This document shows, in pieces, positions 46,366 to 49,746 of a stretch of 64,000 nucleotides of DNA (position 1 is its first letter; each line of letters begins with the position of its first letter). The notes below the pieces were generated by a model. The model did no database searches and was not told where the DNA came from. It worked only from the letters and a program-made list of their open reading frames with translations. The stretch comes from Kribbella albertanoniae. GTDB taxonomy: Bacteria; Actinomycetota; Actinomycetes; Propionibacteriales; Kribbellaceae. Location: the NCBI RefSeq assembly GCF_004348455.1, contig NZ_SMKA01000008.1, forward strand, positions 1 to 64,000, given 5' to 3'. Position numbers and translations under genes: made by a program.

Positions 46366-46785
46366 TCAGCCAGACGCGGAGAACGGATTCAGCAGCTTGA
46401 CGCCGATCCCGGTCACGGCATCGGAGTCGCGGGTGACGAGAGTCCAGTCGTGGACGACGGCCGTCGCCGCCAGCAGACCATCGATCACCGGCAACGGACG
46501 GTAGGCATTCAGCCGGCCCCAAGCCTCCGCGACCTCGCGGGACACCGGGGCGATGCGATCGCCGTACCCGTTCACCAGGCGGTCGCGCCACTCGGCGATC
46601 GCCTTTGCCTGGCGCACGTCCCGCAGCGCAAGGCGCTCGATCCCCTGGGTGATCTCACCGACGGTCAGCACACTGAGGCGCAGGTCGCTCGACCGGACCG
46701 CGTCGATCCAGCCGACCACCCCGGTGTCCGGCCGCGGACGGCGGAGCTCGGACACCACATTCGTGTCGAGCAGGAAGCAACTCAT
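46366..46785 (-). CDS. PIN-domain toxin (VapC-type ribonuclease)
   Basis: A protein of 139 aa of the PIN family. Acidic residues sit at the expected places: [10 protein letters not shown] (Asp 7), GEITQGIE, and [19 protein letters not shown] (two Asp). VapC toxins cleave tRNA or rRNA when the antitoxin is lost. The start overlaps the antitoxin stop by 4 bp, the usual toxin-antitoxin layout. It lies between aroC and the exported peptide gene. Confidence 0.92.
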
Positions 46786-47063
46786 TCGAAGTCGACCTGC
46801 CGCGCCGGAACGTCGGAGCGCTCGATCTCGAGCATGCTCAGGTCAGGTCCTGTCAGCAGAAAATCCTTGAAACTCATCTGGTCCTCCCCGAGTAACCGCC
46901 GGTATTCGGCGATGTCCAGCACGACAGCAACCTCCTCGCCGTGTTTTGTCACGAACTGCGGGCCATCGGCTCGGACGGCCCGGATCAACTCACTGAACTG
47001 TTGTTTCGCTTCCTGCAGTTGCCAATGACTCTGGCGCAGTCTCCCGATCCCGAACCCCATCAC
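46782..47063 (-). CDS. Phd/YefM-type antitoxin of the PIN toxin
   Basis: A protein of 93 aa. The N-terminal fold WQLQEAKQQFSELIRAVRAD, then GPQFVTKHGEEVAVVLDIAE, is the Phd/YefM DNA-binding module, and the acidic-hydrophobic C-terminus should wrap the toxin. Two adjacent Met codons (47063, 47060) precede GFGIGRL; either may start. The pair probably represses its own promoter. Confidence 0.88.
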   Translation of the reverse strand: MMGFGIGRLRQSHWQLQEAKQQFSELIRAVRADGPQFVTKHGEEVAVVLDIAEYRRLLGEDQMSFKDFLLTGPDLSMLEIERSDVPARQVDFE

Positions 47064-47444: not shown

Positions 47445-48542
47445 ATGAATCGTGAGGCGCTGGAGACATGGCGGGGCCGGGTGCGCGGATCTCTTCTGGG
47501 TGGGGCGATCGGGGACGCACTGGGGGCTCCGGTGGAGTTCGAGAGCGGGCGGAAGATCCTCAAGAAGCATCCACAGCTGTTGCGGACGTTCGTGACCGGA
47601 GGCGCCGGTTGGCCGCCGGGGACTGTCACCGACGACACCCAGATGACGCTGTTCACGATCGAAGGGCTGATCCGGGCCGGCGTCCGGTCGGATCGCGGCC
47701 TGGGGCTGACGCTGGCTCCCGTCCACCACGCCTACGACCGCTGGCTGGACACCCAGCAGCGATCCGCGCCGAGTGGTGAGCGCGACGGCTGGCTGCAAGC
47801 GGAGCAGTGGCTGTACGCCCGCCGCGCCCCGGGCAACACCTGCCTTGCCGCACTGCGAGGAGCGCGTCATGGCGGGCCACGGATCACGCAGTACGGCGTC
47901 CAGGTGGTGAACGATTCCAAAGGCTGCGGCGGGGTGATGCGCGTCGCGCCGTTCGGGCTGCTGCCGGACACCTTCACCACGGAGTGGGTGTTCGACGCGG
48001 CCAGCGAAACGGCCGGATACACGCATGGTCACCCGAGCGGGAAGCTCGCTTCCGGTGCGCTGGCGGCGATCATCCACGAGATCTGCGGCGGCGCGACGCT
48101 GGACACGGCCCTCGATACCGCGGCCGAGCTGCTGACTCGCTACGAAGGGCATGAGGAGACCAGTGAGGCGCTGACTGATGCGAGGGAGCTGGCGGCGTTG
48201 CCTCCGGCACACCGGCCGGCCTCCGTCGATCAGCTCGGCGGGGGCTGGGTGGCGGAGGAGGCATTGGCGATCGCTGTCTATGTCTCGCTCATCCATCAAG
48301 AGCCGGAGCAGTTCCTGGATGCGCTGGCGCTCGCGGTCACGCACAGCGGGGACAGCGACTCCACCGGAGCCATCTGCGGGAACATCCTGGGTGCCCTGCA
48401 CGGTGAGGCGGCGCTGCCTGCGGAGCTCGCCGCCACCGTCGAGGGCCGGGCGGTGGTTCTCCAGCTGGCTGACGACTTCGTGGAGGAGTTCACCCGCACG
48501 CAGCCGCACCCAGGGTTCGCGGCTCGCTACCCAAGCTCCTAG
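47445..48542 (+). CDS. ADP-ribosylglycohydrolase family protein
   Basis: A protein of 365 aa of the ADP-ribosylglycohydrolase (DraG/ARH) family, which removes ADP-ribose from proteins or small molecules. Metal-site motifs are visible: GAIGDALGAPVEFESG near the N-terminus, VTDDTQMTLFTIEGL (TDDT) and HSGDSDSTGAICGNILGAL near the C-terminus. It has no signal peptide. A stand-alone gene, convergent with the lipoprotein gene across a repeat-rich gap. Confidence 0.95.
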   Translation: MNREALETWRGRVRGSLLGGAIGDALGAPVEFESGRKILKKHPQLLRTFVTGGAGWPPGTVTDDTQMTLFTIEGLIRAGVRSDRGLGLTLAPVHHAYDRWLDTQQRSAPSGERDGWLQAEQWLYARRAPGNTCLAALRGARHGGPRITQYGVQVVNDSKGCGGVMRVAPFGLLPDTFTTEWVFDAASETAGYTHGHPSGKLASGALAAIIHEICGGATLDTALDTAAELLTRYEGHEETSEALTDARELAALPPAHRPASVDQLGGGWVAEEALAIAVYVSLIHQEPEQFLDALALAVTHSGDSDSTGAICGNILGALHGEAALPAELAATVEGRAVVLQLADDFVEEFTRTQPHPGFAARYPSS

Positions 48543-48593
48543 CGGGCTACCCCCAAGGCGATATCAGCGCTCTCCACACGAGCTGGTACGACG

Positions 48594-48721
48594 TTGAGCA
48601 CGGGTCAACCATGCTCGCGACCGTACGGTGGTTGAGGCGTGCCCAAGGTGGGTTGGTCGAAGCGGCCTTGAGCACGGTTCAACCGTTTCAGCGGGGTACC
48701 AGATGGTTGATGGGTGCTCAA
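48594..48721. repeat. Four alternating copies of a 17-bp motif
   Basis: TTGAGCACGGGTCAACC at 48594-48610, then its reverse at 48630-48646 (minus strand TTGGGCACGCCTCAACC), forward at 48668-48684 (TTGAGCACGGTTCAACC) and reverse at 48705-48721 (minus strand TTGAGCACCCATCAACC). Start-to-start distances are 36, 38 and 37 bp, and orientation alternates. No gene lies here. Confidence 0.8.
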
Positions 48722-48772
48722 AGTGACTCCCGGCCCGACGATCTCGACTCCCCCCGGAGCGCTCATCGTCCT

Positions 48773-48872
48773 CCCCAAACCGGTTTAGGAAGCACCCGCA
48801 CCGGCGGCCAGGGCATGTGGGGAGGATCCACCCCCCAAATCCGTCGCGAATCCACCCCAAACCGGTTTGGGG
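48773..48872. repeat. Paired palindromes around ACCGGT
   Basis: An exact 18-bp palindrome CCCCAAACCGGTTTGGGG is at 48855-48872, and a near copy CCCCAAACCGGTTTAGG at 48773-48789. A half-copy (CCCCCCAAATCCG) lies between, near 48830. The two stand about 82 bp apart and are non-coding. Confidence 0.75.
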
Positions 48873-48909
48873 AAGGGGATCCGGCAGGGGCGTTCCCGCG
48901 ACTTCCCCT

Positions 48910-49022
48910 AACGTCCGAACGTCCGGAGACCGGCCCTCCGATCTTTCGGACGTTGGCCGGGGGCGAGGTTGACGTCCGACGATTCGGAGAGCACGAGACC
49001 ACGGCTGCAGGTCCTTCGGACA
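48910..49022. repeat. Cluster of CGTCCGA/TCGGACG inverted repeats
   Basis: AACGTCCGAA (48910-48919) pairs exactly with TTCGGACGTT (48945-48954). Further partial copies are ACGTCCGGAG, GACGTCCGAC near 48971 and CTTCGGACATT near 49014. They are spaced at roughly 25-40 bp, just downstream of the lipoprotein gene stop at 49078. Confidence 0.65.
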
Positions 49023-49077
49023 TTGGGAGCGGGACCGGGATAGCGCCGGGAGGCCTTAACTCACACTGGCCTTGGGA

Positions 49078-49746
49078 CTATTCCTTCGGGTCGATGCAGC
49101 GCCAGCTGATGCTGCCGGACAGGCTGCCGGAACCGCCGACCAGCCGCGGCAGGACGAGCTTTCCGGAGCCGTCCCGGTTGAGGTCGATCTTCGCCGTACC
49201 GTCCTCGGCCTCGTAGGTGACGTCGTCGACCACGATCGAGCCGCTGGCCGCGGCGCCTGTGACGCCGGCGCCGTCGCCGGCCTTGTCTGCGCCGAACGCC
49301 GCCTCCACCGACTGGCTGCCGATCACCTTGGTGACCTTCGGCAGCCCGGGCTCGTCCGACTCCAGCGTGCTGGCGCCGTACTCCGGGCAGGTCGAATCGG
49401 GCAGATTCCCCTCCGGGATTTCGGCGTTCACCCAGTTCGACCCTGTCACCGTGGTCGCCCCTGTCAGGTTGAAGGTCACACACAGCGCCGTTACCGGCTG
49501 CGCCACGCACGTCGCCGGCAACGGCCCACTCCCCTGTGAAGGGCCGCTGGTGTCCGGTACGCCGGTGGTCCCAGGCACCGGCGTACCGGAGGTCATGGGA
49601 ACAGTCGCCGAACCGCTGGTCGGAGCGGGCCGGCCGGTCGAGCGGGCCGGCTGCCCTGGCGGGGCAGTCGTACCCGAGCAAGCGACCAGGACCGGGACCA
49701 GCAGGCCGAGCTCGAACCCGGCGACCAGCAGTGCTTTGATCCGCAT
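49078..49746 (-). CDS. Lipoprotein of unknown function
   Basis: A protein of 222 aa. A signal peptide ends in lipobox LVAC (residue about 23), followed by a long Pro/Thr/Ser-rich linker (about 25-80) and a folded C-terminal part with paired Cys (ATCVAQPVTALCVTFNLTG, CPEYG, SWRCIDPKE). Surface-anchored. It starts 3 bp after the preceding lipoprotein gene ends, so the two are probably co-expressed. Confidence 0.8.
   Translation of the reverse strand: MRIKALLVAGFELGLLVPVLVACSGTTAPPGQPARSTGRPAPTSGSATVPMTSGTPVPGTTGVPDTSGPSQGSGPLPATCVAQPVTALCVTFNLTGATTVTGSNWVNAEIPEGNLPDSTCPEYGASTLESDEPGLPKVTKVIGSQSVEAAFGADKAGDGAGVTGAAASGSIVVDDVTYEAEDGTAKIDLNRDGSGKLVLPRLVGGSGSLSGSISWRCIDPKE

Follow-up and report, generated by a model that had tools for sequence, protein, structure and literature searches.

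Introduction

MITEs, as a class, are small, non-coding elements with terminal inverted repeats that are found dispersed. Repeats of the REP type are usually explained by the action of RAYT transposases, and several arrangements of such repeats have been described. BIMEs consist of regularly spaced REPs in alternating orientation and have been attributed to RAYTs (PMC2817692). The REPINs of Pseudomonas fluorescens are inverted REP doublets with conserved ends, in which the length of the spacer is kept more than its sequence, compensatory changes occur and copies can form ordered clusters (PMC3116915). A further group, the CGTC-tagged REPs, has no dedicated transposase; its members carry CGTC terminally and have stems of 8-9 bp closed by loops of 4-5 bp (PMC3733652). 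According to that paper, the REPs it considers are located mainly downstream of coding regions; it also mentions untagged REP-like families, in Mycobacterium tuberculosis and others, and its text has no occurrence of the word Actinobacteria (PMC3733652). Searching listings of the literature on Kribbella or actinobacterial REP-like repeats, we found no description of the families considered here.

These families came to attention in a gap between two genes within a 64-kb stretch of the draft genome of Kribbella albertanoniae, which we refer to as the window. A preliminary description of the gap knew of no named element with its layout. This was wrong in kind, as BIMEs and REPINs are described with just such a layout, in which palindromes outside genes follow one another at regular distances and in alternating orientation (PMC2817692, PMC3116915). 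We consider it likely that three non-coding, extragenic repeat families of Kribbella, which look and behave like REPIN/BIME elements, have landed in the gap.

Results

Repeats in the gap between two convergent genes

The full gap spans 535 bp (48543-49077) and, as had been described, is enclosed by two convergent genes, one for an ADP-ribosylglycohydrolase and the other a 222-aa ORF (Table 1). A PIN-domain toxin/Phd-YefM antitoxin pair adjoins the ADP-ribosylglycohydrolase gene (window positions 46366-47063, minus strand), and homologues of this pair are found near the ADP-ribosylglycohydrolase gene in several relatives. The counterpart of the window's gene pair in one genome, G003 (59.7% and 50.6% identity, the latter match possibly being a paralogue), has convergent ends that overlap, with no repeat between them.

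Table 1. Features of the repeat-bearing gap (window positions) and of the brk locus (own locus coordinates).
Feature	Position	Strand	Remarks
Flanking gene, ADP-ribosylglycohydrolase	47445..48542	+	ORF; PF03747, E 6.8e-70
Family A hairpin 1	48589..48651	.	half-sites 48594-48610 (+), 48630-48646 (-)
Family A hairpin 2	48663..48725	.	half-sites 48668-48684 (+), 48705-48721 (-)
Family B palindrome copy 1	48773..48790	.	2 mismatches
Family B palindrome copy 2	48855..48872	.	exact; starts 82 bp past copy 1
Family C hairpin 1, AACGTCCGAA...TTCGGACGTT	48909..48955	.	DNA fold z -4.08
Family C second copy, degenerate	48970..49028 (about)	.	fold z -0.14
Flanking ORF, 222 aa, lipoprotein-like by eye	49078..49746	-	no Pfam family
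brk locus	L245:1652-3093; also L228, L236, L248, L012		bracketed by A hairpins

What had been reported of the repeats themselves was borne out. Four 17-bp half-sites of family A (TTGAGCAC-N3-TCAACC) alternate in orientation, with start spacings of 36, 38 and 37 bp, and make up two hairpins, the first of which is matched at 48588-48652 by R1, an A hairpin model built from 17 sequences (E 1.9e-16). The window contains no other match to the half-site with up to two mismatches, and 100 shuffles gave a mean of 0.19 matches with none reaching four. The paired ACCGGT palindromes of family B are similarly beyond chance (shuffle mean 0.03, none reaching two). The set of CGTCCGA repeats, our family C, consists of a good hairpin and a degenerate second copy. 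When the single strands were folded and compared with shuffles, C hairpin 1 alone among the repeats of the gap showed a clear gain (z -4.1); the gain was modest for the two A hairpins (z -1.9 and -2.2). Neither palindrome of B (z +0.8 and -1.5) showed a clear gain, and the degenerate copy of C folded no better than its shuffles. The view that this is no ordinary terminator region also stood, given that the intrinsic terminator arrangement of a GC-rich hairpin followed by a T-run was found 0 times in 48400-49200, against 0.5 expected.

Dispersal and arrays in the source genome

The preliminary description had named the lack of the motifs elsewhere as something that would refute it; this refutation fails, as a search of the genome from which the window comes (9.73 Mb in 593 contigs) returned hundreds of copies. 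There are 416 half-sites of A and 29 palindromes of B, each with up to one mismatch, and 173 exact hairpins of C, with the reversed control giving 0 for all three. The motifs are not private to the gap but are dispersed extragenic repeats of Kribbella, spread over hundreds of unrelated gaps. Copy numbers from our profile searches of this genome are lower bounds, as 20 of 263, 40 of 152 and 40 of 165 candidates were scored, and in these numbers one palindrome can count on both strands.

Such dispersal bears on two earlier suggestions, a small-RNA locus and the relic of an integrative element. Either would be structured non-coding DNA between genes, as seen here, but neither is specifically supported: the window has no Rfam match at the gathering score, a simple scan of the gap revealed no sigma-70-like promoter, recurrent neighbours of the repeats include no integrase or transposase by eye, and the repeats recur in hundreds of unrelated gaps. 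We regard both as very improbable.

The repeats are arranged with considerable regularity. In the 40 regions fetched from the window's genome, successive half-sites of A switch orientation at distances of mostly 36 and 37 bp, for a period of 73 bp, and the arms of C do so at 35 and 27 bp, for a period of 62 bp. The usual distance between two B copies in these regions is 82 bp, and the C array begins about 55 bp further. The claim of three distinct families is thus to be qualified: the motifs are real, and B and C often form one block, B-82-B-55-C, rather than always being separate. Where A and the B-C block are near one another, A lies on the B side in 9/9 loci, the window included. There are 41 isolated four-copy A arrays, 26 of them with the spacing 36-37-36, and among these 26 the likeness between first units (0.722) and between second units (0.745) exceeds that between the two units within an array (0.699). 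Given that units are more alike across arrays than within them, the pair of A units seems to have been copied as a block, although the difference is small. In other Kribbella genomes there are arrays of A hairpins that differ in period (108 and 83 bp, at L184 and L169), which suggests that arrays arose more than once.

Structure of families A and C

Among the relatives, A is mostly a single palindrome of about 61 bp with its half-sites 36 bp apart. Of 72 half-site pairs, 67 have a spacing of exactly 36; the remaining five, at 65-67, probably join a half-site of one hairpin to that of its neighbour. The element comprises two inverted ends of about 21 bp and a 19-bp spacer that is fixed in length and loose in sequence, and complementarity between its sides drops to background just beyond positions -5/57. 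The outer positions vary yet stay paired (0.81 observed against 0.59 expected at -3, and 0.83 against 0.51 at -1); further in, at stem positions 8-17, pairing is about as frequent as expected and covariation is absent. Taken over 17 A sequences, the covariation score was greater than in 500 of 500 shuffles, and pairs changed on both sides showed no excess (3, compared with 2.7 in shuffles). In the window's genome, complementarity at arm positions 8-10 of A is below chance (0.22, 0.16 and 0.05 against 0.47, 0.50 and 0.29), which may be explained most simply if the arrays go back to a founder that was mismatched there (GGT/CCA). The self-palindrome within each half-site is weak, being TTGA/TCAA in the window's genome and TTG/CAA in many relatives. 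The arms of family C are 10 bp long and enclose an interior of 25-26 nt; its 12 distinct 46-nt forms covary at several inner-stem positions (e.g. 0.67 against 0.33, 0.58 against 0.24), and 53 distinct 45-nt forms, mainly from the window's genome, show no inner-stem covariation.

Distribution among relatives and position relative to genes

With 138 candidates scored per genome, R1 detected A at E 0.01 in 35 of 38 Kribbella genomes and found none in G003, G037 and G048. Copy number varies widely among the 38 species, from 0 to more than 60, these values being lower bounds in which a palindrome can again count on both strands. When 196 genomes from across the order were searched with stricter filters, matches were obtained in 32 of the 38 Kribbella genomes and in 2 of 158 others, both of the latter weak (best E 3.5e-5). 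B is present in 10 of the 38 (90 copies in G043, 66 in G044 and 39 in G005), and C is also present in 10 (16 copies in G031 and at most four in the rest). Going by these distributions, the histories of the three families are separate.

We examined 69 A copies, mostly solitary, in 60 stretches of nine relatives; the 100 regions fetched in all were taken from the best matches rather than at random, and gene positions came from a home-made GC-frame ORF caller. Among the 69 copies, overlap with a predicted gene nowhere exceeds 12 nt. The orientation of the host gaps in these relatives is close to background (13 convergent, 30 tandem and 26 divergent, compared with 16, 42 and 32), such that A shows no enrichment in convergent gaps (13/69 against 16/90). 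This is unlike the window's genome, where arrays favour convergent gaps (21/49 against 4/70, p 1.4e-6) and avoid divergent ones (5/49 against 30/70). This classing of neighbours left out 24 of 73 arrays, many because of contig ends, where arrays are often located in this genome (e.g. L106, L111, L118 and L142). All 25 A copies in tandem gaps of the relatives, with identical distances collapsed, are closer to the upstream stop codon than to the next start, as are 16 of 23 arrays in tandem gaps of the window's genome. Some convergent gaps in the relatives consist of the hairpin alone, whose arms contain or touch the two stop codons (distances -4/-4, 2/2 and 6/6).

Presence, absence and sequence conservation of A copies

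For one orthologous gap, loci were obtained from 30 of the 38 genomes, 24 of which keep the neighbouring gene. The A hairpin is held by six of these 24 and missing in 18, the window's genome being among those without it. In three genomes (G005, G045 and G012) the upstream gene stops at a TGA within the element. Judging from presence and absence at this one gap, A comes and goes.

These positional data could be taken to mean that the hairpins belong to the host, kept for ending transcription in both directions or for protecting mRNA 3' ends, with mobility a minor matter. We think this unlikely. It would account for the proximity to stop codons in every tandem case of the relatives, for the convergent gaps that are just a hairpin, for the genes ending at the TGA inside the element and for the preference of the window's arrays for convergent gaps. 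However, 26 of the 69 copies, being in divergent gaps, have no gene end next to them, the gap of the window has no T-run terminator and the hairpin is missing from three-quarters of the genomes at the orthologous gap, whilst proximity to stop codons is also expected if insertions near promoters get lost.

Of six presumed orthologous groups that were aligned, S3 was dropped since its flanks are not orthologous. The five orthologous A pairs show differences at 10 of 210 arm sites, compared with 23 of 95 loop sites (Fisher p 1.5e-6), a comparison biased toward conserved arms because both members of each pair were picked by a model that scores arms. Differences in the flanks (51/180) were counted without gaps, are inflated as a result and were kept out of the evidence. 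Flanking direct repeats of 2-9 nt, as a target-site duplication would leave, showed no excess other than a weak one for 2-mers (19 against 13.4 expected).

The retention of a fixed 36-bp spacing while the spacer sequence drifts, which includes groups S4 and S5, would suit a protein-loading or nucleoid-organising site, two further earlier suggestions that found no specific support. In such a site a protein dependent on this spacing would bind the half-sites, and arrays would load many copies of it. Dyad symmetry and ordered arrays would also fit with this. We nevertheless find it improbable, given that the patchiness of A among sister species and its loss at the orthologous gap are ill-suited to an essential chromosome site, and that the outer ends vary but stay complementary, which is not required of a fixed binding site.

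Search for a mobilising enzyme

Searches with PF01797 found no Y1 transposase in the window's genome or in 37 of the 38 Kribbella genomes, the same search giving matches in 5 of 14 control genomes. The lone Kribbella example, in G034 (L302:1440-3078), lies beside a TnpB-like ORF (by eye) in an ordinary IS605-like layout, and no A, B or C repeat was found in 3339 bases of this locus. On these grounds we rejected a RAYT/IS200 cause. Nor did clustering of the 363 neighbour proteins of 100 loci point to a conserved carrier: families present in at least three loci look like ordinary cellular genes, these families being mostly orthologous loci and judged by eye from one member each. As no mobiliser was found, the case for mobility is a comparative one.

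A gene of about 335 aa, which we call brk, is bracketed by two A hairpins at one syntenic place in five Kribbella species (G013, G043, G002, G010 and G032). The bracket is doubled in G032 (two dimers) and the reading frame is interrupted in G002. The protein has a weak AbiEi_1 match below the Pfam cut-off and is nuclease-like by eye; matches in Pfam and NCBIfam were all sub-threshold, none was obtained among solved structures, and its AlphaFold model is of poor confidence (mean pLDDT 44.1).

Discussion

Our favoured reading, of Kribbella repeats that look and behave like REPIN/BIME elements, builds on their dispersal, extragenic position, fixed spacing and arrays, together with presence and absence at one orthologous gap, all of which were observed directly. 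Mobility by an enzyme, and any function for the host, we infer. Under such a scheme A would spread as a small non-autonomous element, its two ends being recognised in trans by an enzyme other than a RAYT, probably as a single-strand hairpin. New copies would survive mainly right behind stop codons, where they may do least harm, and from there could provide the mRNA with a 3'-terminal hairpin. In the window's species the hairpins have also multiplied into head-to-tail arrays with the 73-bp period, in addition to the B-B-C block with its 62-bp period.

The bracketing of brk by A hairpins resembles that of rayt genes by REPs, and it is tempting to picture a REPIN-like Kribbella population copied by an enzyme unrelated to RAYTs, with brk as one lead. 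We see this specific proposal as a long shot. If brk or a similar gene does move the hairpins, there would be a second, independent route to REP-like repeats. Kribbella offers a clean system for asking what else copies such hairpins, having a high-copy, strongly patterned REPIN-like family and lineage-specific bursts with practically no Y1 transposase, and is also suited to asking whether hairpins located right after stop codons are maintained because they serve the host. There is a practical warning too, in that contig breaks and many 'odd' gaps of this draft genome probably come from repeat arrays; its assembly into 593 contigs was probably broken by them, and array lengths within it are probably underestimated.

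Turning to the described systems, A shares with REPINs its inverted conserved ends, a spacer kept in length and not in sequence, a hairpin with compensatory changes, an extragenic position and ordered tandem clusters (PMC3116915). The fixed-spacing inverted pair and the covariation are both evident in A, the latter at outer and not at inner positions. A differs in having no RAYT, no GTAG tag (GTAG or CTAC at 0/69 left and 0/69 right ends) and a weak palindrome within each half, and the distance between its ends is 36 bp compared with 71 bp in GI REPINs (PMC3116915). The Kribbella repeats also have the alternating orientation, regular spacing, high copy number (more than 100) and extragenic position of BIME-1, BIME-2 and RAYT-linked REPs, and like these can form hybrid arrays of several families (PMC2817692). 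Here, however, there are three families, B and C form a block of fixed order, and the associated transposase of IS200/IS605 type is missing.

With the CGTC-tagged REPs they have in common short palindromes, mostly as dimers, and the lack of a dedicated transposase (PMC3733652). A terminal CGTC is not a trait of A, since only a minority of copies have CGTC within reach of an end (11/69 left and 1/69 right), and in C this motif is inside the 10-bp arm rather than terminal. The repeats are like MITEs in size, in being non-coding, in their inverted ends and in their dispersal, although no target-site duplication was detected here. Given that their workings resemble those of REPINs and BIMEs whilst the Y1 and GTAG tests, by which the RAYT-linked kind is defined, were negative, we file the Kribbella repeats as an untagged, RAYT-less variant of the REPIN-like kind.
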